Assembly: GCA_017521195.1 (NCBI GenBank)
Contig: JAFXGP010000110.1
Span: 1-54,683, forward strand
Source of the DNA: Lachnospiraceae bacterium
Lineage (GTDB): Bacteria; Bacillota; Clostridia; Lachnospirales; Lachnospiraceae
Reading direction: 5' to 3'
Length of the DNA stretch: 54,683 bases
Below the pieces are notes generated by a model, which saw only the letters and a program-made list of their open reading frames with translations, had not been told where the DNA came from and did not search any database. Every line of letters begins with the position of its first letter. Positions within the stretch are counted from its first letter, which is position 1. The position numbers were made by a program, and so were the translations under genes. Positions 1,966-44,649 of the stretch are shown here, one piece after another.

Positions 1966-2742
1966 TCATATCCTGCATATTTCAGCCTGTATTCCTTTTT
2001 TCTTAAATTTACTTTGTATTGCATCCAGTTCCTCTTCCGATATATCCGGAACTATATAACCTTCTCGCTTCAAAGATTGATATTTCCTTTCGGCCAAATT
2101 ATGTCCCTTTATCAATTCTATTTGCGAATATTTTTTATTTTGAAGAAAACAAATAATTCTATTTATATTATCATTATGTGTCGTATATGGTTTAATTAAC
2201 GGAATTCTATAAATCACATCTACATCAGCATCATTTACAATTTGTATGTTATGTAAATAGTCTTTTAAACTACCACCGTGTACTATTTTACATTGCTCTT
2301 TATCCAAAATCTTTATATCTATAATTAAAGTATCTACATATTTCAAAGCAAGATGCAACTCTTTCTCTGGCACGAATAGTGCAGTCTCTACACAAATATT
2401 TATTCCCTCGCACTGCAGAACTTTTAATAATGGTTGAATTTTTGACATAAATAATAAAGGCTCTCCACCTGAAAATGTAACTCCACCATCCTTGTAAAAT
2501 AATCTGTCCTTAACAACTTCATCATAAATATTTTGAAGTGACATCCAATTTCCATAAATTCCTTTACTTTCATCATCGACTCTACTTACAAAATACTTCT
2601 CCTGCTGGAAATTAATATTTTCCGGATTTGTACACCAAGGACAATGCAAATTACACCCTTTAAAAAATACATTTGTTCTGATACCTGGGCCATCATGCAG
2701 ACAAAATCGTTGAATATTACTAACTAAAACTTTCGTTTCCAT
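1966..2742 (-). CDS. Glycyl radical enzyme activase (radical SAM, PflA-type)
   Basis: The protein is a radical S-adenosylmethionine enzyme that should install the glycyl radical on the enzyme encoded just upstream. With the ATG at 2742 it has 258 residues. The activase signature is intact: HDGPGIRTNVFFKGCNLHCPWC holds the CX3CX2C cluster ligands, followed by TNPEN, and FSGGEPLL lies further on. There are no extra cysteines between the cluster and the GGE motif, so it lacks the ferredoxin-like insert of many dehydratase activases and resembles the compact PflA architecture. An in-frame TTG at 2766 would add eight residues; the ATG is preferred because a GAAAGA-type ribosome site precedes it. 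Its start overlaps the end of the glycyl radical enzyme gene by 23 bases, implying translational coupling, and the flippase follows after 17 bases. Confidence 0.92.
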   Translation of the reverse strand: METKVLVSNIQRFCLHDGPGIRTNVFFKGCNLHCPWCTNPENINFQQEKYFVSRVDDESKGIYGNWMSLQNIYDEVVKDRLFYKDGGVTFSGGEPLLFMSKIQPLLKVLQCEGINICVETALFVPEKELHLALKYVDTLIIDIKILDKEQCKIVHGGSLKDYLHNIQIVNDADVDVIYRIPLIKPYTTHNDNINRIICFLQNKKYSQIELIKGHNLAERKYQSLKREGYIVPDISEEELDAIQSKFKKKGIQAEICRI

Positions 2743-4759
2743 AATATCTTTCTTTTTCACTATCAATTGCTCTCTGAATTAATACATCCTGATATTCAAC
2801 AGGTAAATCATTAAAATATGCACTAAATCCCCATACTCTTACAATTAAATTCTCATATTTTTCAGGATTCTTCTTGGCTTCAATCAACATCTCACTACTC
2901 AGCACATTCATTTGCATTTCAAAGAACCCCATATTAATTGCCACTTTAATTAGCATAAAAAACTTTTTAAAATTATTTTCTATAAATGATGGCGTCACGA
3001 AAAAATCTACGACACTTCCATTACAGTTTGCAGCATTATAACTCTGTTTCGATGCAAAATTCAATAACTCAGTATACGGAATTGCTCCTTTTGATGAAAT
3101 GTGCACTGCCAATGGTTCTCCGTCATTTCTACCATCAAATGTAGCCTTACATTGCTTTCCACGCGACATATAATTAGGAGAACTGAAACCAAACTTTACT
3201 TTTCCGCCAAAGCAATTTTGATAACTATTACATAATCTACTTACTTCATTCGTCAAATTTTGTACTAGTTTTAAAACTTCTATAGAATCTGTTCCCCAAT
3301 AACTTCTGCTCTTTAGTTCTCTCTGCAATTCTCCTTGCCCTTCATAATTAGTAAGTGCTACATTTTTCAGTTCTGCAAGAGTTATACGTTTTTCCTCAAA
3401 TATCAAACTCTTTATATTCATTAATGAATCAACCGTATTAGCCAAACCAACTGTTAATATTCCGTAATCACAATATTGTACTCCTCCTTCAGAAGCATCA
3501 AGATTTTTTTGAATACAACCTCCCGTAAAAAGTGTCATTAACGGATCCCATTCCCATCTAAGAGTGTTAAGTCCCTTAAAAATTTCTGATATTTCCTCTG
3601 CAAGTTTTTCTTTAAATAATACTAATATCTCATTGAAAGTTTTACATTCTTCAAACCTACTATCTGTATATGTATCTACAAAAATCTTTGCATAATTTAT
3701 ATCTCCTAAGTTTCCTCTTCCCCATGCTTTCCCAAAAGCAAAAGGTTCCCAACAAGCACTTGTAATATAATTACACGCATCTGCATATTCATATCCAAAA
3801 TCACATAATGAAGGAATAATCACTTCATCATTTGCAAGCAATGGTCCACCAATCCCAGTTGCTATACATTTTATTGCTAGTTCTAATAGAGCATCCGGCA
3901 TATTCTCTGAAACACGCAATAGTAACTTAGGATCAGGTAATTTACATTGTATCATTGCGCGAACAAACGCATATGTTATTCTGTTAGAAAAATAATCACC
4001 ATCTTCAGTCTTTCCACCAAGAATAATAAGTTGACCGGTATCCCCCAAAATTGAACTACTCTTATATGGATAATAGTTGTGTAACTCTTCCAAAAAGTCA
4101 GTTAAAATATTTATTAATTCTTGTTCATCATCCGGTAATTCCAAATCTTGTAATATTAAATCTAAACGTCCGAGTCCTATTAACCTATGTCCTGTTTGCC
4201 AAAATAAAGAAGACCAAAACAATATTCTTTGCAGGCCTTCTTCTAAAGTTCGTGCTGGTGCATCCAACATATTTGTAAAATATTGTTTTGTGATTGGCAA
4301 GTATTTTTCCTCAGGATAGTCTTCTATTTTTCTTGCAATTTCACCAATTACACGATTACAATAACCACAAACATAATCAATCAATTTATTATTCTGTTTC
4401 ATTATTCTATTATCAAAACCATCATTTTGCTTACTCAAATCAAATAATGAGTTTTTAATAATAAGACTATAATCCGGTGAACAGGCATCATTGAATTGTT
4501 CTTTATTATAAAAATAAAATCCCGTATCTATCCAATGTTGAAATCTTTTCTTACTTTCTATTGCAATATTAATTTTAGATAAAAACATTTTGTATTGTTC
4601 GCTCTTATACTTATCATTAAAACAAACTCTTACCTTTGTCTTTTCCATTTTTGACAGCTTCAAATATCTATATTTATAGAATTTCCAAACTTTATGTAAC
4701 TTATATATAAATGTTTGCTTGAAATATGCCTTTATTATTACATATACTCTTTTTTTCAT
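2720..4759 (-). CDS. Glycyl radical enzyme of unknown substrate (PFL/dehydratase superfamily)
   Basis: The 679-residue protein carries the C-terminal glycyl radical loop (VRVWGFSAYF, Gly about residue 644) and the active-site loop SACWEPF (Cys about 336, Glu about 338). A Cys-x-Glu loop is the pattern of glycyl radical dehydratases, lyases and decarboxylases; pyruvate formate-lyase has two adjacent cysteines, so this is unlikely to be housekeeping PFL. The Trp between Cys and Glu, and Trp-Gly-Phe in the glycyl loop in place of the usual small residue-Gly-Tyr, are atypical. It is shorter than most relatives (about 750-850). The first 37 residues are basic and aromatic, like a membrane-associating helix; an internal ATG at residue 38 (4648) would remove them, and neither start has a strong ribosome site. 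A GT2 gene lies 49 bases upstream and the activase overlaps downstream. Reaction unknown; a deoxygenating or eliminating step on a glycan precursor is inference. Confidence 0.9.
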   Translation of the reverse strand: MKKRVYVIIKAYFKQTFIYKLHKVWKFYKYRYLKLSKMEKTKVRVCFNDKYKSEQYKMFLSKINIAIESKKRFQHWIDTGFYFYNKEQFNDACSPDYSLIIKNSLFDLSKQNDGFDNRIMKQNNKLIDYVCGYCNRVIGEIARKIEDYPEEKYLPITKQYFTNMLDAPARTLEEGLQRILFWSSLFWQTGHRLIGLGRLDLILQDLELPDDEQELINILTDFLEELHNYYPYKSSSILGDTGQLIILGGKTEDGDYFSNRITYAFVRAMIQCKLPDPKLLLRVSENMPDALLELAIKCIATGIGGPLLANDEVIIPSLCDFGYEYADACNYITSACWEPFAFGKAWGRGNLGDINYAKIFVDTYTDSRFEECKTFNEILVLFKEKLAEEISEIFKGLNTLRWEWDPLMTLFTGGCIQKNLDASEGGVQYCDYGILTVGLANTVDSLMNIKSLIFEEKRITLAELKNVALTNYEGQGELQRELKSRSYWGTDSIEVLKLVQNLTNEVSRLCNSYQNCFGGKVKFGFSSPNYMSRGKQCKATFDGRNDGEPLAVHISSKGAIPYTELLNFASKQSYNAANCNGSVVDFFVTPSFIENNFKKFFMLIKVAINMGFFEMQMNVLSSEMLIEAKKNPEKYENLIVRVWGFSAYFNDLPVEYQDVLIQRAIDSEKERYYGNESFS

Positions 4760-4808: not shown

Positions 4809-5849
4809 CTATTTATAATATATCTGCATAATTACATTATATAACAATTCATATTTTTCAATTATGTTTTTAATCTTATTTTTATATTTATTCATTTTTA
4901 AATATCTATCTACATATTTAAAATCTGATTTCCTATATTTTTGAGCATCAGCACTTAATTCTTCATAATTATATTTATAGATTACATCAATTTTTGTGTC
5001 TAATTTTTTTAATTCTTCAATTTTTCCTAACCTTGCTAAATGTTCGTATTGAAGACTAATTTTTTTCATAATGTACTGTCTCACTATTTTACGATTATCA
5101 TTCAATATACTATCTTCGTTTTCAAATCTAAATAATTCATCTATAATTGTATAGTTTTCTTTATAATGCTTTCTAATTCCTTGATCACTCACACTCTGTC
5201 CAGCACGACCTATTCTATAACTATATATTGGATTTTTATAAATATATGCAGTTTTTGAATGTGCTATTGCTTTTATCACATATTCTGAATCTGTATAAAA
5301 GCAATGTTCACACAACTTTATATTGTTCTCCTTTAACATGCTCGTCCTAAAGGTAGCTGTATGCATCGTAATCCCAGGTACCGCTGCTTCTAAATCTTGT
5401 AATGATATCTTACTTTCAATTTTAGAATTTAACAAATATGTAAAAACACCTTTTTTACGATTCGTCTCATCTTCAAATTTACAACATGGACTATATATAA
5501 TATCCACCTCTAGTCCACTTAAGGTATAAATATAATCCTCTAAAAATTCGTCTAAAAAAAAGTCATCTCCATCCAATAATTTAAAATATTTTCCAGTTGC
5601 TAATTGAATTCCCGTATTAACAGTAGATCCCCATCCGCCATTATGCTTATGTATGAATCTAAATGTATTGGGAAATTTTTCAACATATTTCTTAACTTTT
5701 TCTTCCGTACAATCTTGTCCACCATCATCAATTACCAATACTTCTACTAAGTCCATTGCACTTCCTAATCTCAGGAACGAATTCAAACACTGTTCTATAT
5801 ATTTCTCAACATTATATGCTGCCACCGATACTGTTAATACCTTGTCCAC
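4809..5849 (-). CDS. Family 2 glycosyltransferase
   Basis: A cytoplasmic GT-A transferase of 346 residues. The nucleotide-sugar fold is clear: LTVSVAAYNVEKYIEQCLNSF at the start, VLVIDDGGQDCT around residue 40, and the DGDDF metal-binding segment near residue 90. It probably adds one sugar to the lipid-linked repeat unit. The frame is open up to a GTG at 5882, with an ATG at 5870, but the GTG at 5849 is chosen because GGAGG lies nine bases before it and because the conserved GT2 start follows at once. It is separated by 49 bases from the glycyl radical enzyme gene downstream, so the two are probably co-transcribed. The C-terminal 100 residues are lysine- and tyrosine-rich, as is common for peripheral membrane GT2 enzymes. 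Donor and acceptor cannot be read from sequence. Confidence 0.88.
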   Translation of the reverse strand: MDKVLTVSVAAYNVEKYIEQCLNSFLRLGSAMDLVEVLVIDDGGQDCTEEKVKKYVEKFPNTFRFIHKHNGGWGSTVNTGIQLATGKYFKLLDGDDFFLDEFLEDYIYTLSGLEVDIIYSPCCKFEDETNRKKGVFTYLLNSKIESKISLQDLEAAVPGITMHTATFRTSMLKENNIKLCEHCFYTDSEYVIKAIAHSKTAYIYKNPIYSYRIGRAGQSVSDQGIRKHYKENYTIIDELFRFENEDSILNDNRKIVRQYIMKKISLQYEHLARLGKIEELKKLDTKIDVIYKYNYEELSADAQKYRKSDFKYVDRYLKMNKYKNKIKNIIEKYELLYNVIMQIYYK

Positions 5850-6123
5850 TCTTGTACTCCTCCACACCATATCTATATACACTATTTATTTAATCTTTCA
5901 TAATTATTTTTCATTTAATATTATCAGAAACATCCTATAACACTGAAATAAATTTTTATAATACCCTCTCATATTTTTTAATAAATAATATTTTCACTCT
6001 TTCTCTTTCCCTAAGATAATCCAATCCATATTCCCTAATATCGCTACGCAACAAGAACTACTATAGACGATAGATAACATAGCGCATTTTTTATCCATCG
6101 ACACCTTATCGTTAAATTAGAAG

Positions 6124-6539: not shown

Positions 6540-7751
6540 TTAATCTACCGAAAACAAATCTCTCGTATATACTTTTTCTTCCACATCCGTAAGTTCATCC
6601 GACTTACGATTAGAAATAATGAGTTCACACTCTTCCTTAAACATCTTCAAATCACGTTCCACCAGACTTCCGAAAAATGTCTCCTCTTTATAGGCTGGCT
6701 CATAAACCACAATCTCCACACCCTTCGCCTTCAGACGCTTCATAATTCCCTGAATGGATGATTGGCGAAAATTATCGGAATTGGATTTCATCGTAAGACG
6801 ATATACACCAACTACTGCCTTTTCACCTTTTAACTGCTTGTTCTCAAAATCAATCCGATTCAAAATCTGTTCGGAAATAAAATCCTTTCTTGTACGGTTA
6901 GCATCTACAATAGCCCCAATAATATTATTAGGAACATCATCATAATTCGCCAATAACTGTTTTGTGTCCTTTGGCAGACAATACCCACCATATCCGAAAG
7001 ATGGATTGTTATAATGCTCACCGATTCGAGGATCAAGACTAACTCCACGAATAATCTCTTCCGTATTCAATCCTCTCACTTCCGCATAAGTATCTAATTC
7101 ATTAAAGTAAGCTACTCTTAATGCCAAATAAGTATTCGCAAATAATTTCACCGCTTCCGCTTCAGTCGGCTCCATAATCAGAATATCTATGTTTTCTTTT
7201 AAAGCACCTTCCTTTAACAATTCAGAAAACTGTACCGCTTTCTCATAAGCATCTTCTTCCTTATGTACTCCGACAATAATTCTGGAAGGATAAAGATTGT
7301 CATACAAAGCCCTTCCTTCTCTCAAAAATTCAGGTGAGAAAAGAATTCTTCCAGTCTGAAATTTCTTCTGCATTTTTTCCGTAAAACCAACCGGAACTGT
7401 AGATTTCACTACAATATATGCCTTCTGATTAACCTTTAACACCTTTTCAATTACCGACTCTACCGAAGAAGTATCAAAATAATTCTTCTTAGGATCATAA
7501 TTGGTCGGAGTAGAAACAATAACAAAATCTGCATTTTTGTATGCTTCTTCTCCATTGGTTGTTGCTGTTAAATCCAGCTCTTTTGTCTGTAAATATTCCT
7601 GCAGTTCCTTATCCTGAATCGGTGACTGCTTATTATTAAGCATATCCACCTTTTCCGGAATAATATCTACTGCGTAAACTTTATTATGTTGTGCTAATAA
7701 CACGGCGTTAGATAAACCAACGTAACCAGTTCCTGCGATTGTAATTTGCAT
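6540..7751 (-). CDS. ugd: UDP-glucose 6-dehydrogenase
   Basis: The enzyme oxidises UDP-glucose twice with NAD+ to UDP-glucuronate. The 403-residue sequence has the N-terminal Rossmann motif GTGYVG (residues 7-12), STPTN near residue 80, KSTVPVG near 116, and the catalytic-cysteine block [14 protein letters not shown] with Cys at about 258. Length and order match the short bacterial UDP-glucose/GDP-mannose dehydrogenase family. In this locus it feeds the UDP-glucuronate decarboxylase encoded at 9003-9944, giving UDP-xylose, and may also supply glucuronate. The start ATG is followed directly by the Rossmann strand. It is less AT-rich than the neighbouring glycosyltransferase genes, so it may be part of a more conserved block. 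Remnants of another gene follow its stop. Confidence 0.96.
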
Positions 7752-7880: not shown

Positions 7881-8942
7881 CTATTTTTTCCTTATTTTTT
7901 TCACCCAAATCCTTGCCTTTACCATAGCAAATGCTATCTCAATCAATTTATATTTCATAGTAATAACAAATAACTTTTCAGTATTACGCATTAATTTCAT
8001 TTGAACATTCATAAATGCATCTTTATAATAGTGATTATTCAAAAGTTTAATAATATTTTTCCTAGCATTTAAGTAACCAAATTCATCCAAGTACTGTTTA
8101 GTAAAAAAATAATACGCCAAATATTTATAAAACCAAGTACATATCCTAACATCAATACCGTTAATAAACATCTCATCATGTTGCTTATAGGTTCGCGCAA
8201 ATTTTTTCACTTCTTCCACATCTGCTTCTGTATACTTTATTATATCTGAAGACATTTTATGAGATAACGAATCTGTCAATAATCTGTAATGATATAATGG
8301 CTCATTTAAATAAATTATTTTTTTTGCATTTTCAAACATATGCATATTAAATATTCCATCTTCGGTTCTTCTAACATTAAGCGGAAATATAATATTATGC
8401 TCCTTAATTAAGCTTAATTTATATATTCGTGCCCAAGGTGCCCCTATTGCCAAATATGGGTTATATTCCTTTATTCCTTTGCAAAGAAATTTTCTTAATT
8501 CAATATTAATTCTCTCTTTATCCCAAATCTGTTTATTTTCATCCAATTTTATATTTACTTTTTCCTTTGAATTTGACATATTTATATAATAATTAGATAT
8601 AACAATATCAGAATCTTCACTTACAGAAATTAGTCTTTCGAGCATATTATTTTCTAACCAATCATCTGCGTCAACAAAAGATATCCATTTCCCTGTAGCT
8701 TCCTCAATTCCTCGATTCCTTGCTTTTGATGGACCACTATTTTTCTGTGTCAAAAGTTTTACTCTATTGTCTTTCTTTATATACTCTTTACAAATATCAA
8801 CACTTTTATCGCTACTGCCATCATCAACACAGATAATTTCTATATTGCTTATTGTTTGGCTTAATACACTATTTAAACATTCTCTTAAATACTTTTCTAC
8901 ATTATACATAGGTATAACAACACTTACTAAAATATTTCCCAT
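7881..8942 (-). CDS. Family 2 glycosyltransferase
   Basis: A 353-residue GT-A fold enzyme. The start ILVSVVIPMYNVEKYLRECLNSVL, the CVDDGSSDKS nucleotide-binding segment near residue 36, and the FVDADDW metal-binding block near residue 88 are classical. It is predicted to transfer a sugar from a nucleotide donor to the lipid-linked repeat unit on the cytoplasmic face. The ATG at 8942 has AGAGGAAG just upstream. It lies 60 bases after the UDP-glucuronate decarboxylase gene and 129 bases before ugd, so the xylose-pathway genes bracket it. That makes it a candidate glucuronosyl- or xylosyltransferase, but position is the only argument. The C-terminal half is poorly conserved and basic. Confidence 0.9.
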   Translation of the reverse strand: MGNILVSVVIPMYNVEKYLRECLNSVLSQTISNIEIICVDDGSSDKSVDICKEYIKKDNRVKLLTQKNSGPSKARNRGIEEATGKWISFVDADDWLENNMLERLISVSEDSDIVISNYYINMSNSKEKVNIKLDENKQIWDKERINIELRKFLCKGIKEYNPYLAIGAPWARIYKLSLIKEHNIIFPLNVRRTEDGIFNMHMFENAKKIIYLNEPLYHYRLLTDSLSHKMSSDIIKYTEADVEEVKKFARTYKQHDEMFINGIDVRICTWFYKYLAYYFFTKQYLDEFGYLNARKNIIKLLNNHYYKDAFMNVQMKLMRNTEKLFVITMKYKLIEIAFAMVKARIWVKKIRKK

Positions 8943-9002
8943 GACTTCCTCTTCTGATTTATTATTTTCTTATGCAATATAAAATTTAACTTTCATAATT
9001 AT

Positions 9003-9944
9003 TTATACCAACAAATTTTTAAAATAATCTATTGTCTTAATAAGTCCTTCCTCCAAATAAACACTTGGCATCCAATCCAATTCTTTTTTTGCCAAATCAA
9101 TAATAGGTTTTCTCTGCATTGGATCATCTTGCGGTAAAGATTTATACACAATATTTGATTTAGAATCTGTCAAACGAATAATTGTCTTTGCCAATTCCAG
9201 CATTGTATATTCTCCCGGATTACCAAGATTTACAGGTCCTGTAAATCCATCCCTACTATTCATCATCCGCATCATTCCTTCGATCAAATCATCAACATAA
9301 CAAAAGCTTCTCGTCTGGCTCCCATCACCATAAATTGTAATATCTTCTCCTTTTAATGCTTGAACAATAAAATTTGATACCACTCGTCCATCATATTTAT
9401 TCATTCTTGGTCCATATGTATTAAAGATTCTAATTACCTTAATATCTACACCATGTTGTCTATGGTAATCAAAGAATAATGTTTCCGCCATTCTCTTGCC
9501 TTCGTCATAGCAAGAACGAGGTCCAATTGTATTTACACATCCTCGATAACTTTCCGGTTGTGGATGTATTTCTGGATCTCCATACACCTCACTTGTACTA
9601 GCTTGTAAAATTCTCGCATGTGTTCTTTTAGCTAAACCCAAGGTATGTAACGCTCCCATTACACTTGTCTTTCCCGTTTTAATCGGATCATACTGATAAT
9701 GAATAGGACTTGCTGGACACGCCAAATTATAAATCTGATCCACTTCAACATAAATCGGTTCTGTAATATCATGTCTAATAAACTCAAAATAGGGATTTCC
9801 CATTAAGTGACGAATATTTTCTTTTCTTCCAGTAAACAAATTATCAAGACAAATAACATCATTTCCTTTCTCTATCAATCTATCACAGAGATGAGAACCT
9901 AAAAATCCAGCTCCACCAGTTACCAATACTCTTTTTCTATCCAC
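9003..9944 (-). CDS. uxs: UDP-glucuronate decarboxylase (UDP-xylose synthase), extended SDR family
   Basis: The enzyme converts UDP-glucuronate to UDP-xylose through an NAD+-dependent oxidation, decarboxylation and reduction. Its 313 residues show GGAGFLGSH (10-18), the [11 protein letters not shown] loop, NLACPASP near 73, and the catalytic pair in SCYDEGKR (Tyr146, Lys150), followed by [10 protein letters not shown]. The LACPASP and NTYGPRM signatures separate UXS from dTDP-glucose dehydratase and from GalE. The start is a GTG at 9944 with GGGATAAAAAGG upstream; the Rossmann motif fixes this to within a few residues. Together with ugd it makes a full UDP-Glc to UDP-Xyl route inside the locus, so the polymer probably contains xylose. 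A bifunctional ArnA-like enzyme is excluded because no formyltransferase domain is present. Confidence 0.93.
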
Positions 9945-10059
9945 CTTTTTATCCCTACACTTTCTATACTTATTGCTTTAATTCAATGCTTTTTTTCAAT
10001 TACCTAATTTGAATACAGGCATACTTTGATGCATGCAATTTGTCTTTAACCTACAAGTA

Positions 10060-11067
10060 TTAATTTTTCTGCAATTTATAAATCTTATATTCTTTGCATA
10101 ATAAATTTTGTTTCAATAGCTCTATCCAATATTTAAATTTCATTATAAAAGCTTCTATTAGCAACGTATCTTTTCGAGACAATCGAAAACATATTCTCAC
10201 TAAATATTCTAATTTAGGATTTATCTTATATGCTTTTTTATAATAATATATCATTTTGCTTTTTCCCTCATTCAAAAAAGCCCTATAAGCAGCCTCTTTA
10301 TAAAAATATTCTTTTCGTAAATCTTGCTCTTCGATACTTAGTTTTTTAAACAATTCAGCATGTTTTTCGTTTATATAACAAACAGCATCTATCCAATTCT
10401 CAAATTTGTTTGTCAATCTATTTCCTTCCCCAATGCGTCTATCTATAAATACTAAAGGCTCATTAACAAATCCCACTTTAGTTACTTGCATTATTCTCAA
10501 AAAAAGTTCGTACTCCTGCCAATATTTTAATTTCTCATCAAATTTTCCAACCTTCTCTAATATTTGTTTTTTTACCATTATTTGCGATGTATTAAAATAC
10601 GGCCATAAATACATCTTCTTCTCTAATAAATCACCACATATATTTTTCTTTGGAAGTTTTTTATAATTATATAAATCACATCCGTAATCAGCAATTATTC
10701 CTGTATATACCATAGCCATCTGGTCATTATTTTTTACAACTTGTATCTGTTTTTCTATTTTGGTTTTCTCCCAATAATCATCATCATCTAAAAAAGCAAT
10801 ATATTCACCTTTAGCATTACCAATTCCTAAATTGCGAGCATAATTATTTCCCTTAGATTCATTGGGCGTTATATAAAAATATTTTGTATTTGTTTCGGAC
10901 AGCTTACTTCCCCACTGATATGTGTCATCTGTAGATGCATCATCAACAATTATAATTTCTATATTTGAATACGTTTGATTTATAATACTAAAAAATGCTC
11001 TTTTACAAAGTTCACATCTATTGTGAGTTGTTATTACACAACTTACCATTGGATTTTTATCATTCAT
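10060..11067 (-). CDS. Family 2 glycosyltransferase
   Basis: A 335-residue GT2 enzyme with MVSCVITTHNRCELCKRAF at the start, IIIVDDASTDDTYQW near residue 38, and the FLDDDDYW metal-binding cluster near residue 90. The THNR opening and the long acidic DDD run place it in a different GT2 subgroup from the two neighbours that begin with YNVEKY. The ATG at 11067 is preferred over an in-frame GTG at 11076 because AGGTG lies about seven bases before it. It follows the polymerase gene by 22 bases and precedes the UXS gene by 115 bases. The C-terminal part is rich in Lys, Tyr and Phe and may lie on the membrane. Donor sugar unknown. Confidence 0.88.
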   Translation of the reverse strand: MNDKNPMVSCVITTHNRCELCKRAFFSIINQTYSNIEIIIVDDASTDDTYQWGSKLSETNTKYFYITPNESKGNNYARNLGIGNAKGEYIAFLDDDDYWEKTKIEKQIQVVKNNDQMAMVYTGIIADYGCDLYNYKKLPKKNICGDLLEKKMYLWPYFNTSQIMVKKQILEKVGKFDEKLKYWQEYELFLRIMQVTKVGFVNEPLVFIDRRIGEGNRLTNKFENWIDAVCYINEKHAELFKKLSIEEQDLRKEYFYKEAAYRAFLNEGKSKMIYYYKKAYKINPKLEYLVRICFRLSRKDTLLIEAFIMKFKYWIELLKQNLLCKEYKIYKLQKN

Positions 11068-11089
11068 TTTAGACACCTATAATTCTTTC

Positions 11090-12316
11090 TTATATTTTAT
11101 TTTTATGTGAATTTCCCCAAAAAGAAACACATAAAGCAATCATGGTATTTGTTAAATAATAACCGCTAAACATAGACATAATAAAACCTGTAGCAAAAAT
11201 CATCCACCAAATACGATTTGTACTATCTCTTTGAACTAACTTAAAAGACAAATATAGTCCATATGCCATAATAGAACAAAAAATTATTAATCCCACAGCT
11301 CCACTTTCTAACAATAAATCTATAAATAAATTATGTGTCCACAATCCCATTTCATAAAAATCTGATCCCAGTCCATATCCAAATAATGGTTTATTACTAA
11401 TTATAGAAAATGCATTATTTCTTATTTTGTCTCTAGCTTTATCAGAAAAAAAGAACTGTAAATCTAACAATCTTTGTATTCCCGAAAACTTTATTGAGGA
11501 TTTTTTCGCCACACTTATTACTCCTATAAAGACTACAGGAACAGAAAAAACAATCATGCTATTTCTAAAAATTCCTACTTTATTACTCCCCTCCCGTTTT
11601 ATCAAGACATATATTGTATACATTATAGATAATATACTTAATACTAATCCCCCTCTTCCCCCTGCTATAAAAATAGTAAATACATTTATTATCGCAATTG
11701 ATACACATACTATATTCCCAATCTTTTTTTTAAAAAATGAACTCCATTTAACATTATCAACTTCTAAAATATAATATTCAGCAAAAACTGTCGAAAAAGC
11801 CGCCAAATAAGAAATAGCTTGATAATTCATGCCATTATCATTATTAATCCAACCGCCCCCCATCATTCCTTCAGCAAATAAAGTGTTATATACAGCCGTA
11901 AAACTGAACACTAATGAAACATAAGGAACAAATTTCTTAATTTGATATTGAATTAAGCAATTATGAGCAATAAAACATGCCAATACAATACTCATTATTG
12001 TCTGACTTACTAAAACCAGACCATATGTCTCATACGATTTATTTTGATAACCATACATAAACTGAGTTGTATAATATAAAAAAACTATTAATACAGCTAC
12101 CAATATTGTAAATACTTGAGATATAGCAAACTTAATTCTTTGCTTCATTAGATTAATTACAATAGCTATAACTGAAATAATATCAATAATGAATACCAAG
12201 CCCACCAATGTAATATTGGGTATAAATATTGAAAAAAATCCAAACCAATAATTCACATATAAACTTCCCCACATTGCTATCGTTGTTATTAATGATCCAT
12301 TAATTTTCACTTTCAT
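11090..12316 (-). CDS. wzy: Wzy-like O-antigen/capsule repeat-unit polymerase
   Basis: A 408-residue integral membrane protein with about 10-12 helices. Two features of the O-antigen ligase/polymerase family are seen: the large outer loop and the conserved NKPLFGYGLGSDFYEMGLWTHNLFIDLLLESG block (about residues 305-340), which resembles the PLFGYG...HN..L motif of this family. It should join flipped repeat units on the outer face. The start ATG at 12316 has AAGGA just upstream; an in-frame TTG at 12358 lacks a ribosome site. It is 22 bases before the next GT2 gene, but a 497-base gap with a decayed gene separates it from the GT4 upstream. Ligase activity cannot be excluded, but no lipopolysaccharide core is expected in this organism. 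Confidence 0.85.
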   Translation of the reverse strand: MKVKINGSLITTIAMWGSLYVNYWFGFFSIFIPNITLVGLVFIIDIISVIAIVINLMKQRIKFAISQVFTILVAVLIVFLYYTTQFMYGYQNKSYETYGLVLVSQTIMSIVLACFIAHNCLIQYQIKKFVPYVSLVFSFTAVYNTLFAEGMMGGGWINNDNGMNYQAISYLAAFSTVFAEYYILEVDNVKWSSFFKKKIGNIVCVSIAIINVFTIFIAGGRGGLVLSILSIMYTIYVLIKREGSNKVGIFRNSMIVFSVPVVFIGVISVAKKSSIKFSGIQRLLDLQFFFSDKARDKIRNNAFSIISNKPLFGYGLGSDFYEMGLWTHNLFIDLLLESGAVGLIIFCSIMAYGLYLSFKLVQRDSTNRIWWMIFATGFIMSMFSGYYLTNTMIALCVSFWGNSHKNKI

Positions 12317-12422
12317 GATTGTCCTTACAACCCTACATAAATTTTTGTAATCCCGCAATTCTCCATCTTGTTACATTAATCGTAGCTACAATAGAACTGT
12401 CTCGCAGGTAATTTTTCCAAAA

Positions 12423-12605
12423 CTAATATTGCCTTTTTATTAATTTATTCCTTGCCGTACTATTACCTAGTTCCCTATACTTCACAAGAACCTCTTGATT
12501 TCCATATACCTATTTTATAAATCCACACTCATGCAAAATTATCTCTGATGCTTTTAATTCTTCTTTGTGAAATAATTTTCCATGTCGAGTAGAATAATAC
12601 ACTCC
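12423..12605 (-). pseudogene. Decayed ORF remnant between GT4 and polymerase genes
   Basis: In the 497-base gap one minus-strand frame reads as protein-like sequence (starting GVYYSTRHGKLFHKEELK, near 12602). A TAG at 12510 breaks it, it resumes as VYGNQEVLVKYRELGN, and it ends at 12423. No ribosome site or intact start is present and no family was recognised. The rest of the gap shows only AT-rich sequence. Confidence 0.3.
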
Positions 12606-12813
12606 TCATAAACAACTAATGTAATTCATTACCCTATAAAAAAATTTATTTTATCACCATTAAAACAATAATCATCACAAATTTTCCTCAAGAATCTGTA
12701 GAGCCTTCATCGTCTAAAACAATTTCAAGATTTTAATATAATTGATTGATATATGGACATCTTTTTATATATTTTTATATATTTTTCTACATTATAAACA
12801 ACTACTATAATAT

Positions 12814-14043
12814 TCATTCGTTTATTAATGCCTCAACTACTTTTACAGCTCTTTTATATGTAATTAATCGATTAAATTTCTCCTCTGCACATTTTCTTGA
12901 AGCAATACTCATCTCTTTTCTTAAATTTTCATCTTCAAATAATTCCAAAACAACTCGCATTAATTCCATATTATTTTCCGCTTCTATATTTATACCAAAT
13001 CCATTCTCTTCAACAATTCTCCTAAATTCCAAATTCGCCAATGTATTTATCATCGTACTGCCTGAAGCCAAATAATCCCCAATTTTATTCACAATACTCT
13101 GTGGTGCACTTTTTACAAATGAATTTACAACAACATCCGTTTTTGCTAAATACGCTGCCATTATAGGATATTCCATATATCCCATAAGTTCTACATTACT
13201 ATTTCCCAACTGTTTTATTAATTCCTTCATTTCCTTTAATAAAGGCCCCGTTCCCATAATTTTAAATTTAATCTCTTTAATACCCTTTTTTTCAATCTCA
13301 TTTGCCACTTCTATCAAAGTTTTTATATCGTAGCTTGTCCCTATGGTTCCAGCATATGATACCCAAAATTCATCCTCTTTTTTTTCTATCGTCGATAAAT
13401 ATTTTTTTACTCCTTGATCAAATACATTTAAATCACATCCAACATATATAGTCTCTGCAGGAATATTTTTCTCTCTTTTCATAAATGCTCGATTAGTGTA
13501 ATCATCTGATGTTCCTATTACAGCATCAGCATTACTATAGACATACTCTGCATCTCGCATCATTGGATAATATAAAATATCACTGACAATAGGCATATTC
13601 AAAACCATCTTCATTGCTTCTGGCCATAAATCTTCTATATCAATAACAATAGGAATGCCATTTTTTTTACAAAATTTTGTCACTTTTGCTGCCACATTAT
13701 TTGCTGGAATTACGCAAAAAATCGCATCATACTTTTCTTGCCTTCTTAAATAAGAAAGCACATTTTTAGATGCTTTATAATTACTCCATATTCTACGAAT
13801 ATCAATATTCTTCTTATAAGTAGGTACATGAATAAATACATTTTTAAATTTATATGTTTTACTATTTAAATCAGTTATATCACGTGGTCTTTTTTCAAAA
13901 TGTTGAAAGTCACTCCCAATAAGTTCCACTTCATAACCAGATTCAGCAAATATATTTGCCATATAGTAAAAACGAGAAGGCCCCTTTTCTCCAGGCAACC
14001 ATGCATATCCTAATGCAACAATAGCAATTCTTTTCTTTTTCAT
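12814..14043 (-). CDS. Family 4 glycosyltransferase (GT-B fold)
   Basis: A 409-residue GT-B enzyme. The N-terminal Rossmann half starts with KKKRIAIVALGYAWLPGEKGPSRFYYMANIF, a donor-domain lead with the glycine-rich GPSR loop. The C-terminal half has VSYAGTIGTSYDIKTLIEVA near residue 225, then FKIMGTGPLLKEM, and the E-x7-type region around VVNSFVKSAPQSIVNKIGDYLASG. This architecture fits WcaI/WbuB-like second-step transferases. It is the gene directly after the priming transferase (12-base gap), so it may add the second sugar; that is inference from order. The ATG at 14043 follows GGAAAAAG; a GTG at 14055 is the only upstream alternative. A large gap with a gene relic follows it. Confidence 0.88.
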   Translation of the reverse strand: MKKKRIAIVALGYAWLPGEKGPSRFYYMANIFAESGYEVELIGSDFQHFEKRPRDITDLNSKTYKFKNVFIHVPTYKKNIDIRRIWSNYKASKNVLSYLRRQEKYDAIFCVIPANNVAAKVTKFCKKNGIPIVIDIEDLWPEAMKMVLNMPIVSDILYYPMMRDAEYVYSNADAVIGTSDDYTNRAFMKREKNIPAETIYVGCDLNVFDQGVKKYLSTIEKKEDEFWVSYAGTIGTSYDIKTLIEVANEIEKKGIKEIKFKIMGTGPLLKEMKELIKQLGNSNVELMGYMEYPIMAAYLAKTDVVVNSFVKSAPQSIVNKIGDYLASGSTMINTLANLEFRRIVEENGFGINIEAENNMELMRVVLELFEDENLRKEMSIASRKCAEEKFNRLITYKRAVKVVEALINE

Positions 14044-14055
14044 CTTTTTCCACAC

Positions 14056-15432
14056 TTAACTCAAAATATTTTTTACATTTTTTGAAATTTCCCTACTCTT
14101 CTCCACCTCGAACCCTTCCGTACTCTCCGGAATAAACATAGTTTTTATAGTAAGAAGAATTAATTTCAAATCTAAAATCAATGACTGATTCTCAATATAC
14201 AGAAGATCCAGCCTCAGCTTGTCATACGCAGAAGTATTATATTTCCCATATATCTGTGCATATCCGGTAAGACCTCCCAAAACTTTCATACGATATGCGA
14301 ATTCCGGAATTTCTTTTGTATACTGCTCTACATGTTCTACTCTCTCTGGTCTTGGACCCACGATACTCATATCCCCTTTAAGAATATTGATAAACTGTGG
14401 CATTTCATCCAATCGTGTTTTTCTAATAAAATGTCCAACCTTGGTAATTCGATCATCATGTTCAACACATGGTTTTACACCATGTTTCTCTGCATCAACA
14501 ATCATGCTTCTGAACTTAAGAATTTCGAAAACCCTCTTATCTTTGGTACATCGTTTTTGTTTGAAAAACACCGGACCTCCATCTTCCAATTTGATTAACA
14601 ATGCAATCAATAATAAAATTGGGGAGGTGAGCAATAATACGAACGTAGAGAACACGATATCCAGAACTCTTTTTTTCCAATAGGTATCCTTACTTTCATA
14701 CACATAATCGTATTTCATTAACGGTGTATCTAATAAATGCTTCGGCACACAACCTTTGAACATCATATCTTCCACTGTTGGAGATACATAAAATGCTTTC
14801 TTCTGTTCAATCATATGCGCCATATATTTTCCTCGAACATTAGCTGACAATTCATATAAAATTGCTACATCATACTCCTTTTTTTCATGGATAAATTCCG
14901 CTATGGATGCTGTTTCACACTCCATATGAACTACTGAAAAAAGGTGTTTGTATTTACTTAACAATCTTTTTTTGAACTGTTCCGCATCATATTCGTTAAT
15001 TTCTTTTCCATAAATCAATATTGTTGTCTTGGGCGGAATATGGTTAATCATGTACTGTTTCGTAAAGGTTACTAATGCTGTAGTTCCCACAATTTGCAGT
15101 ACCACCGTTACCACTCCCGGTACAATGTTTATGTAATGGTTATAAATGAGACAACATTCTACATATAGAATCAAATCTGCAATTCCAAAGGATAACACCT
15201 GCGAAAAAATTGTTTCCCCTATTTCGGAAGATGCAAACCTGTATGCTTTATATAAATTACATAAAGCTATATAAATAATTCCATAGATTAAAATACTGAT
15301 AAATCCGCCAAACATATGGTATTCATCAAAGGCGAATTCATTGTAATAATCCAGCCACACAATCAAAAAGAGAGAAATATTCCAAATGATTAAAAAATTT
15401 CTTGCCAGCTTGGTTATTCTTTTATTTTCCAT
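14056..15432 (-). CDS. Undecaprenyl-phosphate sugar phosphotransferase (priming enzyme)
   Basis: A 458-residue polyprenyl glycosylphosphotransferase that starts repeat-unit synthesis by moving a hexose-1-phosphate from UDP-sugar to undecaprenyl phosphate. Four or five N-terminal helices and a CoA-binding-like domain precede the catalytic bacterial sugar transferase domain (about residues 265-458). That domain opens with WKKRVLDIVFST and a hydrophobic re-entrant helix, then KRCTKDKRVFEILKFRSM, TRLDEMPQFINILKGDMSIVGPRPER, and GLTGYAQIYGKYNTSAYDKLRLDLLYIEN. The ATG at about 15432 has GGGAGAAGG before it. The frame stays open to a TTG at 15486, but that codon lies in an inverted repeat. The hairpin between the Rpn-type gene and this start could terminate upstream transcription, so this gene may need its own promoter. 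Confidence 0.94.
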   Translation of the reverse strand: MENKRITKLARNFLIIWNISLFLIVWLDYYNEFAFDEYHMFGGFISILIYGIIYIALCNLYKAYRFASSEIGETIFSQVLSFGIADLILYVECCLIYNHYINIVPGVVTVVLQIVGTTALVTFTKQYMINHIPPKTTILIYGKEINEYDAEQFKKRLLSKYKHLFSVVHMECETASIAEFIHEKKEYDVAILYELSANVRGKYMAHMIEQKKAFYVSPTVEDMMFKGCVPKHLLDTPLMKYDYVYESKDTYWKKRVLDIVFSTFVLLLTSPILLLIALLIKLEDGGPVFFKQKRCTKDKRVFEILKFRSMIVDAEKHGVKPCVEHDDRITKVGHFIRKTRLDEMPQFINILKGDMSIVGPRPERVEHVEQYTKEIPEFAYRMKVLGGLTGYAQIYGKYNTSAYDKLRLDLLYIENQSLILDLKLILLTIKTMFIPESTEGFEVEKSREISKNVKNILS

Positions 15433-15468
15433 TTTCCTTCTCCCTTCCATCCATTCTTTCATACAAAA

Positions 15469-15512
15469 AATCCCAACATAAGACAATTACATATCTTACA
15501 TTGGGATTTCTT
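15469..15512 (-). terminator. Intrinsic terminator after the Rpn-type gene, before the priming transferase
   Basis: On the minus strand a 15-position stem (AAATCCCAATGTAAG with CTTATGTTGGGATTT, two mismatches) closes a 12-base loop and runs into a T-tract. One arm and the loop are part of the 22-bp inverted repeat at the element end. Coordinates are good to within a few bases. If active it would reduce read-through from the front half of the operon into the glycosyltransferase half. Confidence 0.65.
15482..15503 (+). repeat. Left 22-bp inverted repeat flanking the Rpn-type gene
   Basis: The sequence from GACAATTA to TTACATTG (22 bases) is the exact reverse complement of 16661-16682. The two copies bracket the Rpn-type gene and its upstream region, giving a 1201-bp unit. 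Confidence 0.75.
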
Positions 15513-15534: not shown

Positions 15535-16419
15535 CTATTGATTTTCTTTCTTCTCTTTATCCATTTCCTTGATTAGTGTTAAAATATTTTCTACAGAATC
15601 TTCCAAATCATCTGCAATAGCTTCTACTGTTTTTCCCTTGGATAATTTAGTCTGAATTAATTGGATTTTAATATTGCGTTCTCCTGCAATCCTTCCAATT
15701 TTTTCTGCAACTTTCGTTCTCTCATCTAATTCATCTTTCATCAATTCAAGCAAAGCTTCACACATTTTAGTCGCCTCCTTAAACACTTCCTTGTTTGCAT
15801 GTACAATGACATTCATTACGGATTTATGATTGTTTTCATTCTGATGACCTTCATATTCACTTAAAATTCTATTCGCTTCTTCTACAGATTTCAAGTCATT
15901 TGTTAAATAACGTAACCAAAAATTTTCTTCTTTCGATAATCTTGAGGTCAAAATTAACTGCATTGGAAAATAATCACCATGAATAGTATATATACCTTCT
16001 TTTCCTTTTATCCTAAATCCTCTTTCTTCCCTTAGATGCTTAATTAATTCTCGTGGTCTATTTTTGCATACAAAAGTTATGGTTATCTCATTTGCCTTAA
16101 TTTCATCTACATGATTGGTATCTGCCTTATAAAAACAAGCATAACCATATACTTGATAAAAATCATCAATACTTATATAATCCTCTGGACTTTTATACTC
16201 TATTATATTGTACCTTCGAAAAATCCTTCCAATATTCTTTTGTATCTTGGCGTCAGGCTCTTTTTTGATAATTAAGACATCGATTTGCTTTGGCTTCGTT
16301 CCTAACTGATGTTCATTTTCAAATTCCAACTTCTCTTTTTCCTGACTAAACTCAATCTGAATACCCGCATAAAAAGCAGGATGCCATTGTATTGCCGATT
16401 CTTTCGTTTCTTCTCCCAT
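15535..16419 (-). CDS. Rpn/PD-(D/E)XK nuclease family protein (putative transposase)
   Basis: A 294-residue protein of the Rpn-like PD-(D/E)XK family, abundant in Lachnospiraceae and often in multiple copies. The nuclease core is seen as KQIDVLIIKK (Asp about residue 46) followed by NIIEYKSPED (Glu-x-Lys about residues 70-72). The C-terminus holds a coiled, charged stretch and a helical tail (GKTVEAIADDLEDSVENILTLI). E. coli Rpn proteins are known to promote recA-independent recombination as DNA endonucleases; whether this one does is inference. The ATG at 16419 has AAGGAGG upstream; a TTG at 16437 is rejected. It interrupts an otherwise orderly polysaccharide operon, lies on the same strand, and is bounded by 22-bp perfect inverted repeats, so it probably arrived as a unit. 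Some homologues are misnamed 3-isopropylmalate dehydrogenase. Confidence 0.82.
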   Translation of the reverse strand: MGEETKESAIQWHPAFYAGIQIEFSQEKEKLEFENEHQLGTKPKQIDVLIIKKEPDAKIQKNIGRIFRRYNIIEYKSPEDYISIDDFYQVYGYACFYKADTNHVDEIKANEITITFVCKNRPRELIKHLREERGFRIKGKEGIYTIHGDYFPMQLILTSRLSKEENFWLRYLTNDLKSVEEANRILSEYEGHQNENNHKSVMNVIVHANKEVFKEATKMCEALLELMKDELDERTKVAEKIGRIAGERNIKIQLIQTKLSKGKTVEAIADDLEDSVENILTLIKEMDKEKKENQ

Positions 16420-16660
16420 GGGAACCTCCTTATTCAATTAATCGGAGTTCCTCTCTTTCAGCAACTCCTTTATCCTCATTTAAGCTTGAATTTCTGAAAG
16501 ACACAGACAGAATGTCTGTAAATGTGATTTAGATGAAACTGAAATATTTTTCTTAAGTTTCATTTGAATTGTTATATGAAATCTTGCTTATTTGTGATAC
16601 TAGCATAACATTCATTTTTCTAAAAATCAACATTTTTTTACGTTTTAACATTCATTTTCT

Positions 16661-16789: not shown

Positions 16790-17371
16790 TTAGAATTCAC
16801 CAGTTTTTGGAGCTTTCACAACAGAAGTTGCCTGTGCTGCGTCTACTACCATAACTACTACTGGAGAGAAGCTTGTGAATGTACCTGTTACAGTCATGTC
16901 TGCACCAAGGAAACCTTCGCCAACTTTTTCCCAAGTTCCAGCTTCGTTATTCATTCTGTGAAGAATTACTGCGTAATCTCCAACTTTTGCATTGTTAACT
17001 TTGATAGGTACAGATACACTTGTCTGACCTGCAGGGATTTCAATCTTAAGATCGAAAGCTGCTGCTAACTTTGCTGCAGAACTAACACCAAGGTTTTTTA
17101 AATGTGTAGTATTTTCTACAACATCTTCTACTGCATCCATAACTGCTACAGGAAGAACCTTAACATCAGCACCTGCTACTGCTACTGTTGCGTTTGCTTT
17201 AGCTTCTGTTGCCTTAGCTTCAGCTGCTGTTGGAGCAGCTGTTGTGGTAGTAGTTGTTGTAGCACCTTTACTTGGTTTTGCAGTCGCCTGGGGACTTGGA
17301 GCTGCAAATACAGGTAATACCATAGCTACAGATAAAGCTGCAACTAATAAAGCGCTAGATAACTTTTTCAT
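16790..17371 (-). CDS. Secreted Ala/Thr-rich surface protein with C-terminal APKTGEF
   Basis: A 193-residue exported protein of unknown function. Residues 1-23 are a signal peptide (MKKLSSALLVAALSVAMVL, cleavage near VFAAP). A Pro/Ala/Lys/Thr linker with seven consecutive Thr spans about 25-60. The remainder looks like a beta-sandwich (SVSVPIKV, VGDYAVILHRM, GTWEKVGEGF, GTFTSFSPVVVMV), a pattern seen in clostridial surface proteins. The C-terminus APKTGEF resembles the (S/P)PxTG-type signal of clostridial sortase B, but no hydrophobic helix or basic tail follows, and none is encoded after the stop. It lies 94 bases after the LCP gene and close to the sortase gene. An excellent AGGAGG site fixes the start. 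It may be a wall or polysaccharide-associated protein. The GC content of its linker differs from its neighbours. Confidence 0.85.
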   Translation of the reverse strand: MKKLSSALLVAALSVAMVLPVFAAPSPQATAKPSKGATTTTTTTAAPTAAEAKATEAKANATVAVAGADVKVLPVAVMDAVEDVVENTTHLKNLGVSSAAKLAAAFDLKIEIPAGQTSVSVPIKVNNAKVGDYAVILHRMNNEAGTWEKVGEGFLGADMTVTGTFTSFSPVVVMVVDAAQATSVVKAPKTGEF

Positions 17372-43419: not shown

Positions 43420-43458
43420 GCAAATTAGTTCTATACTATAGAAACAGAGGTGTACAAA

Positions 43459-44649
43459 ATGGAAAGAAAAGTTGGTACAATTTCAAGAGGTATTCGTTGT
43501 CCTATTATCCGTGAAGGTGATAACTTAGTGGACATCGCAGTAACCAGTGTTATGGAAGCAGCTGAAAGCGAAGGCTTCTCTTTAAGAGACAGAGATGTTA
43601 TTGCTTTAACAGAATCCATCGTAGCACGTGCTCAGGGTAATTACGCATCTGTTCAGGATATCGCAGATGACGTTCGTGCAAAACTAGGCGGAGAAACTAT
43701 TGGTGTTATCTTCCCAATTACCTCCCGTAACCGTTTTGCAATCGTTTTAAAAGGTATCGCAATGGGAGCTAAAAAAGTAGTTTTAATGTTAAGCTATCCA
43801 AGCGATGAAGTTGGTAATGCACTTTTAACTTACGATCAATTAGATGAAGCCGGTATTAACCCATATAGTGATGTATTAACTTTAGAAAGATACCGTGAAT
43901 TATTCGGTGAAAACAAACATGAATTTACAGGTGTTGATTATGTAGAGTATTATTCTGACATTATCAAAGAAGCCGGTGCAGAAGTTGAAATCATCTTCGC
44001 TAATCAGGCTAAAACAATCTTAAATTATGCTGATTGCATTTTAACTTGTGATATTCATACCAGACAAAGAACAAAACGTATCTTAAGAGAAAACGGTGCG
44101 AAAGCAGTTTGCGGTTTAGATGATATTTTAACAAGCTCTGTTAACGGCGGCGGCTACAATGCAAAATATGGTTTGTTAGGTTCTAACAAATCTACAGAAG
44201 ACCAGATCAAACTCTTCCCTAACGAATGTCAGGATTTAGTAGAAGATATTCAGGCCGAAATCATGAAATTAACAGGAAAACATGTTGAAGTAATGGTTTA
44301 CGGTGACGGTGCTTTCAAAGATCCTCAAGGTAAAATTTGGGAATTAGCTGACCCGGTAGTATCTCCTGCATTTACAGCAGGTCTTCATGGTACACCAAAT
44401 GAATTGAAATTAAAATATCTTGCTGATAATGATTTCAAGAACTTAAGCGGTGCTGAATTAAAAGAAGCTATTTCTAAGAGCATCAAAGAAAAACAGTCTA
44501 ACTTAGTTGGTAACATGGCTTCCCAGGGTACAACTCCAAGACAGTTAACCGACTTACTTGGTTCTTTATGTGACTTAACAAGTGGTTCCGGAGACAAAGG
44601 TACTCCAATCATTTTAATTCAGGGTTACTTTGATAACTACACAGATTAA
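43459..44649 (+). CDS. Coenzyme F420-0:L-glutamate ligase-like (CofE family) protein
   Basis: A 396-residue protein of the CofE/FbiB-like fold. The start RKVGTISRGIRCPIIREGDNLVDIAVTSVMEA and the DRDVIALTESIVARAQGNY block match the N-terminal glutamyl-ligase core of this family. Then come VIFPITSRNRFAIVLKGIAMGAKKVV and a C-terminal domain (about 240-396) with VMVYGDGAFKDPQGKIWELADPVVSPAF. CofE adds glutamate to F420; F420 is not expected in Lachnospiraceae, and no other F420 gene is near, so the real substrate is probably different. The ATG at 43459 has AGAGGTG upstream; an ATG at 43450 is rejected. Terminator follows. Confidence 0.85.
   Translation: MERKVGTISRGIRCPIIREGDNLVDIAVTSVMEAAESEGFSLRDRDVIALTESIVARAQGNYASVQDIADDVRAKLGGETIGVIFPITSRNRFAIVLKGIAMGAKKVVLMLSYPSDEVGNALLTYDQLDEAGINPYSDVLTLERYRELFGENKHEFTGVDYVEYYSDIIKEAGAEVEIIFANQAKTILNYADCILTCDIHTRQRTKRILRENGAKAVCGLDDILTSSVNGGGYNAKYGLLGSNKSTEDQIKLFPNECQDLVEDIQAEIMKLTGKHVEVMVYGDGAFKDPQGKIWELADPVVSPAFTAGLHGTPNELKLKYLADNDFKNLSGAELKEAISKSIKEKQSNLVGNMASQGTTPRQLTDLLGSLCDLTSGSGDKGTPIILIQGYFDNYTD

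Follow-up and report, generated by a model that had tools for sequence, protein, structure and literature searches.

What does a glycyl radical enzyme (GRE) do among the genes for a surface polysaccharide? The GREs described so far belong to fermentation and to anaerobic degradation. The question is raised by a 54,683-nucleotide contig of a Lachnospiraceae bacterium (JAFXGP010000110.1, assembly GCA_017521195.1), which we call the window. The original prediction, made from the sequence alone, had placed a GRE and its activase between a glycosyltransferase and a flippase, and we confirmed the position, the strand and this setting. Its interpretation, which included a putative oxygen-dependent switch in surface structure, is supported in part. 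On the minus strand, a family 2 glycosyltransferase (GT2, 4809-5882), the GRE (2720-4759, 679 amino acids), a radical S-adenosylmethionine (radical-SAM) activase (1966-2742) and a Wzx-type flippase (518-1948) form an operon-like run. The GT2 gene lies 49 bp upstream of the GRE gene, the GRE and activase genes overlap by 23 bp, and the Wzx gene lies 17 bp downstream of the activase gene. We tentatively favour the reading that the GRE and its activase are a tailoring module of anaerobic polysaccharide assembly, which would take a hydroxyl off a sugar in the repeat unit as it is being built; our confidence in it is close to even. It is built on gene order, a clade, conservation, gene fusions and a residue signature.

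A GRE clade in polysaccharide loci

The window GRE exceeds the Pfam cut-offs for PFL-like (PF02901, 187.7 against 24.3 bits, E = 5.2e-55) and for Gly_radical (PF01228, 50.9 against 22.2 bits, E = 2.4e-13). The protein has both the Cys loop and the C-terminal Gly loop of the PFL-like GRE superfamily, and a radical-SAM activase adjoins it. All 12 NCBIfam models that matched the protein remained below their cut-offs (the best, a PFL2-3 subfamily, reached 206.8 against 678.2 bits), and no characterised GRE family among HypD, CutC, HpsG, HpfG, HPAD, IAD, PFL and PRK09983 reached its own. Judged from its sequence, the protein is clearly a GRE, yet by model cut-offs it is outside the characterised groups; membership in one of them had been named in the original prediction as a refuting result. 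The loops named there are also present. The Cys loop A335-C336-W337-E338-P339 (3743-3757, minus strand) holds the thiyl cysteine and the CXE glutamate, and the radical loop V640-R641-V642-W643-G644-F645 (2825-2842, minus strand) holds the predicted radical glycine, G644. The parts of PMC7077986 and PMC8473560 available to us describe CXE in the Cys loop as the mark of GRE eliminases. C336-W337-E338 has this form and fits the eliminase class, to which glycerol dehydratase (GDH), propanediol dehydratase (PD), CutC, HypD and IslA belong. The window GRE is about 73 residues shorter than the three canonical sequences checked, the gap falling between window residues 72 and 92. One other PF02901 match was found in the genome of the window, on contig C54, with the loops GCVEPQ and RVAGYSAL.

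In a family draw of 397 genomes, the own genome included, 11 had a GRE match of at least 40% identity. Ten of the matches span most of the protein, and that of genome G098 spans residues 163-669. We designate these proteins clade A; below them, scores in this draw drop from 431.8 bits to the 229 bits of the next group. Among 392 genomes drawn across the order, four more had clade A scores, and one of these comes from another family. In a phylum-wide draw of 398 genomes the own genome alone had such scores; two more reached 397 and 346 bits, where clade A gives at least 735 bits with the same profile. Two Lachnospiraceae metagenome-assembled genomes, at 46% identity, came from a scan of named genomes. 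Clade A consists of 17 loci (the window, L003, L004, L035-L044 and L074-L077), all in the order of the window. Two of the copies are broken, that of L003 by a single in-frame stop and that of L044 by internal stops. The uninterrupted members are 38-49% identical to the window GRE, and the 15 proteins form one branch with 100/100 support and a long stem. It turned out that all 17 loci are of polysaccharide type. Absence of the pair from related loci had been named in the original prediction as a point against the idea; instead, both genes were found again in polysaccharide loci from other genera. The sole congener in the draw, G301 (89% complete), gave no GRE match, which may be what is expected for a variable surface locus. 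Spread on plasmids was considered and rejected: among 20 listed of 56 matching plasmid records, identity was at most 30.8%. A scan of viral contigs for additional sequences returned 17 matching stretches and no relatives.

An activase-like open reading frame (ORF) accompanies the GRE in all 17 loci. In the window it was listed from a TTG at 2766, and comparison with relatives favours an ATG at 2742, which gives the overlap with the end of the GRE gene. The original prediction called it PflA-like. This holds broadly, as the protein passes the general GRE-activase subfamily TIGR02494 (207.6 against 174.35 bits), and fails in the strict sense, as the PflA equivalog TIGR02493 was not reached (115.2 against 231.75 bits). 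The cluster motif C-x3-C-x2-C is encoded at 2632-2655 (minus strand), and the ferredoxin-like Cys insert is missing. According to the available part of PMC6453916, many GRE activases carry an 8-Cys motif that includes such an insert. Four of the 14 clade A activases compared (L041, L042, L043 and L076) keep the Cys-containing insert and the other ten are without it; by this comparison, it is lost or reduced within the clade.

In 13 of the 17 loci, the GRE or the activase has a Wzx gene, identified by BLAST to the window Wzx, as its immediate neighbour. In the remaining four loci, L038 has glycosyltransferase genes on both sides, L042 has a GT2 gene directly before the GRE, and L041 has a cytidylyltransferase-short-chain dehydrogenase/reductase (SDR) gene four genes away. 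In L043, a GT2 is fused to the GRE, and an ATPase (BLAST label) and a permease (by eye) stand next to it. Twelve of the 13 GRE-side Wzx proteins are mutually 48-83% identical, the exception being that of L077 (31-34%); the window flippase is of this subtype by Pfam and identity comparison. We searched 394 genomes, scoring up to four candidates per genome. Seven others had a Wzx at least 48% identical to that of the window, and six of the seven are GRE carriers; four GRE carriers had no match at this level. Because the genes are adjacent, this co-occurrence indicates a shared module and not an independent association.

The GT2 adjoining or fused in eight of the 17 loci carries an NxGGxGGF-like motif (in L076, the variant NDGGSAGF). 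All eight partner GT2s match the model of the galactofuranosyltransferase GlfT1 at E <= 0.001, and GlfT1 has the lowest E-value in the tally (6.7e-25), yet the first member, the only one whose score is given, is far under the cut-off of NF050113 (82.1 against 330 bits). The rhamnosyltransferase, EpsD and PglI models likewise match all eight. Against the PDB, the partner-GT2 profile found GalT1 (5HEA) first and GlfT2 (4FIX) second. In the window there is no GT2 with the motif, and GlfT1 is not among the NCBIfam matches of the GT2 next to the GRE.

In two loci the glycosyltransferase is part of the radical system itself. The L043 protein (988 amino acids) contains Glycos_transf_2 at residues 8-109, PFL-like at 468-842 and Gly_radical at 881-965. 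The L038 protein (746 amino acids) joins GT2 (6-171) to the Radical_SAM domain of the activase (516-661). The tree places these fusions on different branches, and L041, which is sister to L038, is unfused. The two fusions are the strongest evidence that the radical enzyme and glycosyl transfer work together.

Some loci also contain genes for polyol or phosphonate donors: IspD-SDR in L041, Fe-ADH_2 in L044, a phosphoenolpyruvate (PEP) mutase-cytidylyltransferase in L074, and LicD in L003 and L077. Two layouts were recorded separately. At L074:433-4392, an iron-containing alcohol dehydrogenase (Fe-ADH), a fusion of PEP mutase and cytidylyltransferase, and LicD (by eye) are near the clade A GRE and resemble a set for phosphonate-type decoration. 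At L036:5700-12000, the block of GRE, Wzx and activase (by eye) has an odd insertion site, between ribosomal protein L10/L7-L12-like and rod-shape-like genes.

Residue signature and the sister group

We compared 15 clade A, 11 canonical and 15 group B sequences (the sister group, described below) in a common alignment. R282, D311, C336, E338, Q616, G644 and R663 are invariant in all clade A and all canonical sequences, and N310 is present in 15/15 and 9/11 of them, respectively. Other positions set clade A apart. Where it has D240, the canonical sequences have Pro (9), Ser (1) or a gap (1); K278 corresponds to Asn (9) or Ser (2), and W643 to Ala (10) or Ser (1). At K522, no canonical sequence has Lys and group B has Arg. 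K233, K278 and K522 are invariant in clade A, and K278 is also found in 15/15 group B sequences. In this alignment the catalytic engine is canonical, and the likely substrate pocket is the clade's own. The clade also differs in charge: the first 40 residues have a mean net charge of +6.2 in the 15 clade A sequences against +2.3 in 19 sequences labelled B, four of them canonical, and the whole-protein values are -5 and -21, respectively.

The best PDB match of the window GRE is the B12-independent glycerol dehydratase 1R8W (177.9 bits, best stretch 212-663), which stands for the PFL2-type eliminases (TIGR01774). Both have the CXE Cys loop, the Gly loop and a radical-SAM activase. They differ in length (787 against 679 amino acids) and in the loops (GCVE and VRVAGY against ACWE and VRVWGF); the pocket His, Asp and Tyr are replaced in the window GRE, and the latter sits with glycosyltransferases and Wzx. 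Sugar-like substrates are known for other sequence relatives of the window GRE: according to the available part of PMC12441222, the E. coli enzymes YbiW and PflD cleave 1,5-anhydrohexitol 6-phosphates. Unlike the window GRE, they are catabolic, have 810 and 765 amino acids and canonical loops, and belong to a separate branch.

Group B, 15 sequences with ACWE and VRVWGW, is sister to clade A and forms one branch with 100/100 support. In the 14 GREs of L045-L053, L055, L057, L058, L078 and L079, ACWE is followed by Phe in 11 cases and by Pro, Val and Ile in one each. Group B has ACWE, D240, G242, K278, N350 and VRVWG (W643) in common with clade A, and Asn at position 92 in 15/15. It is also shortened between residues 72 and 92, but less so (34-35 residues in the three checked; 19 in the window GRE and 92 in the canonical form). 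Its identity to the window GRE is 23-27% (11 compared), and it lacks the clade A residues K233, H553 and D585. Group B neighbours were assigned by Pfam in five of the 15 loci (L046, L047, L052, L053 and L058, where 9 of 10 proteins matched at E <= 1e-10) and elsewhere by eye and BLAST label. By Pfam they include a DeoC-type aldolase, an FGGY kinase, an aldo/keto reductase, a 2-keto-3-deoxy-6-phosphogluconate (KDPG) aldolase, a class II aldolase, two L-fucose isomerases, a PfkB kinase and an Fe-ADH. From these genes, group B probably represents uncharacterised sugar-acting GREs of anaerobe catabolism. In L054, whose GRE is the basal member of group B, the activase, a GlfT2-like galactofuranosyltransferase (Glft2_N, 34.1 against 26.1 bits) and the GRE are encoded one directly after the other (8776-13450). 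An association with glycans thus appears on both sides, in clade A and in group B, and the wider ACWE/VRVWG type seems to act on sugars.

The remainder of the window

The window is a complete contig, C107, from a draft genome of 2.54 Mb that has 133 contigs and is 81.7% complete. Upstream of the four-gene run, further genes are read in the same direction. These are, by Pfam and in part NCBIfam, a UDP-glucose 6-dehydrogenase-like nucleotide sugar dehydrogenase (6540-7751, minus strand, as are all that follow), a GT2 (7881-8942), an NAD-dependent nucleotide-sugar epimerase/dehydratase that reaches no equivalog cut-off (9003-9944), another GT2 (10060-11076), a Wzy-type polymerase (11090-12358; PF04932, 36.6 against a cut-off of 31.7 bits), a group 1 glycosyltransferase (12814-14055) and a polyprenyl glycosylphosphotransferase (14056-15486), which would start the repeat unit. 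Upstream in this run there are also genes of the LCP, Wzz, CpsB and ATPase types. An initiating transferase, Wzx, Wzy and glycosyltransferases stand together, as in a Wzx/Wzy polysaccharide locus. We take the epimerase/dehydratase to be a probable UDP-xylose synthase. The locus probably makes UDP-glucuronate.

Fifty ORFs of at least 120 amino acids were listed in the window, and 40 of them were scanned with Pfam, part at E <= 0.001 and part only at E <= 1e-10. As the original prediction had stated, there were no aldehyde dehydrogenase, alcohol dehydrogenase or microcompartment families among these 40. Two ORFs inside the polysaccharide locus (15535-16437 and 16790-17371) had no Pfam match at E <= 0.001. 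At the contig end, a short acyltransferase-like ORF (by eye, 95-493) stops early; the locus probably runs on past this end. An F420-0:gamma-glutamyl ligase family protein (PF01996) is encoded at 43450-44649, and we know of no use of F420 in genomes of this type. A scan for promoters and terminators gave about the same counts as shuffled sequence (56 against 48.2 +/- 6.8, and 1 against 2.3) and was uninformative.

Possible reaction and its alternatives

We infer the reaction as elimination chemistry, and with it the substrate, its glycan-bound rather than free state and the timing before flipping. Following the GRE family, the activase would put a radical on G644, which would generate a thiyl radical on C336. 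C336 would abstract the hydrogen of a C-H adjacent to a hydroxyl in a sugar or polyol moiety of the repeat unit. The alcohol proton would be handled by E338, and the neighbouring hydroxyl would leave as water. C336 would then quench the product radical and give a keto- or aldehydo-deoxy sugar. The reaction would take place on the cytoplasmic face of the membrane, with the product of the adjacent glycosyltransferase or its acceptor as substrate, and the partner Wzx would flip the lipid-linked unit only after this step. In favour of this reading are the setting of the 17 loci, the two fusions and the mostly uniform Wzx subtype; in addition, CXE is the eliminase motif and the catalytic residues are invariant. 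Group B, with the same ACWE/VRVWG signature, sits with sugar kinases, isomerases and aldolases where tested. Most clade A members have a basic N-terminus, which would suit an enzyme working close to a membrane or a lipid phosphate; together with the Wzx partnership, this feature suggests a substrate that is lipid-linked or being linked.

A more specific version is that the GRE dehydrates the exocyclic C5-C6 diol, or a ring diol, of a furanose, for example galactofuranose placed by the GlfT1-like partner; the product would be a 5-deoxy-6-aldehydo or 6-deoxy-5-keto furanose, of a kind that could be made only in the absence of oxygen. We consider this version unlikely. It is favoured by the GlfT1-like GT2 in eight of the 17 loci and by the GlfT2-like gene between the activase and the GRE in L054. 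UDP-galactopyranose mutase is encoded in the stretch of three loci, L044 (cut by the contig end), L074 and L076, and a fragment below the cut-off lies beside L035. The enzyme was found in 16 of 18 genomes searched (17 clade A and G273), and also in 15/15 clade A genomes from the family and order draws. The latter count says little, because almost every genome of the family has the mutase (358 of 397), and we rejected it as a genome-level marker. The genomes of L003 and L004 gave no mutase match, and the window locus has neither the mutase nor a GlfT1-like GT2; both count against galactofuranose.

It is possible, although rather unlikely, that the GRE has a soluble precursor as its substrate, for example a nucleotide-activated sugar, a CDP-polyol or a polyol phosphate, and supplies an unusual deoxy donor to the adjacent glycosyltransferase. 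Fusion and adjacency fit the channelling of a donor as well as the modification of an acceptor, and L041, L044, L074, L003 and L077 have the polyol or phosphonate donor genes. However, no single donor pathway was seen in all loci, that of the window shows only the UDP-glucose dehydrogenase-like and UDP-xylose synthase-like genes, and the basic N-terminus of most members suggests proximity to the membrane. The same type of enzyme might also perform another reaction: decarboxylation of a uronic acid, C-C cleavage, or epimerisation or isomerisation at a ring carbon. GRE decarboxylases also carry C-x-E, the invariant K233, K278 and K522 could bind carboxylate or phosphate, and UDP-glucuronate is a probable product of the window locus. 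We nevertheless consider such chemistry unlikely: the decarboxylase models are far under their cut-offs (HPAD 96.9 against 1150 bits, IAD 83.3 against 1100), the decarboxylation of UDP-glucuronate is probably already covered by the epimerase-family enzyme at 9003-9944, and the best PDB match is a glycerol dehydratase.

That a sugar-catabolic GRE is merely located in a polysaccharide locus is very improbable. The sister group looks catabolic where tested, but all 17 clade A loci look biosynthetic and two have glycosyltransferase fusions, and the clade is tight and apart from the catabolic group, with the drop in bit scores between them. Least probable of all is an inactive or regulatory relic. 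The two interrupted copies would fit it; 15 of 17 are uninterrupted at their level of identity with invariant catalytic residues, and an activase is kept throughout.

Several observations weigh against the preferred reading of a tailoring step on the nascent glycan. We take the pocket residues of C. butyricum GDH to be His164, Tyr339 and Asp447. The Tyr339 and Asp447 columns were counted on the PDB alignment, and for His164 we used the column in which 11/11 canonical sequences have His. The window GRE has A92, G242 and N350 in these columns and not the pocket of a glycerol-type diol dehydratase. At position 92, 14 of 15 clade A sequences have Asn, and the window GRE is the one with Ala. The column of G242 has Tyr (5), Gly (3), Asn (1), Phe (1) and a gap (1) in canonical sequences, and that of N350 has Asp (5), Gly (5) and Glu (1). 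Because acid-base and binding positions of the canonical sequences are changed, the known chemistry cannot be carried over. An AlphaFold model from three sequences (the window, L004 and the longer L003 piece) had a mean pLDDT of 49.5 and was unusable. No product-handling enzyme, such as a reductase or an aminotransferase, was seen in a constant position across loci; a reactive carbonyl product would therefore have to stay. The basic N-terminus is absent in L038 (-2), L041 (0) and L035 (+1), and each fusion is known from one draft genome. Three Wzx proteins from genomes without the GRE are 41-52% identical to the twelve, so that the ranges overlap, and three genomes that lack the GRE also carry the flippase subtype, at 46-48% identity. 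On a star-like tree, the divergence of the GRE was uncorrelated with that of Wzx (10 loci, r = -0.21, Mantel p = 0.90; with L077, r = -0.03) and with that of the activase (13 loci, r = 0.03, p = 0.42).

In the literature searched (titles and the beginnings of abstracts, with subscription papers largely outside the search), no paper had GREs in polysaccharide biosynthesis as its subject. PMC11528403 contains neither "polysaccharide" nor "glycosyl", and PMC11574389 neither "polysaccharide" nor "glycan". Clade A belongs to a recurring and apparently undescribed gene set for surface polysaccharides. To our knowledge, a GRE in glycan biosynthesis would be the first. The GT2-GRE and GT2-activase fusions offer a genetic handle for finding the substrate. 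If the proposed function is correct, radical chemistry would enter glycan biosynthesis through a clade integrated in polysaccharide assembly. One would then expect sugars whose synthesis is confined to anaerobes, and a surface structure tied to anoxia.

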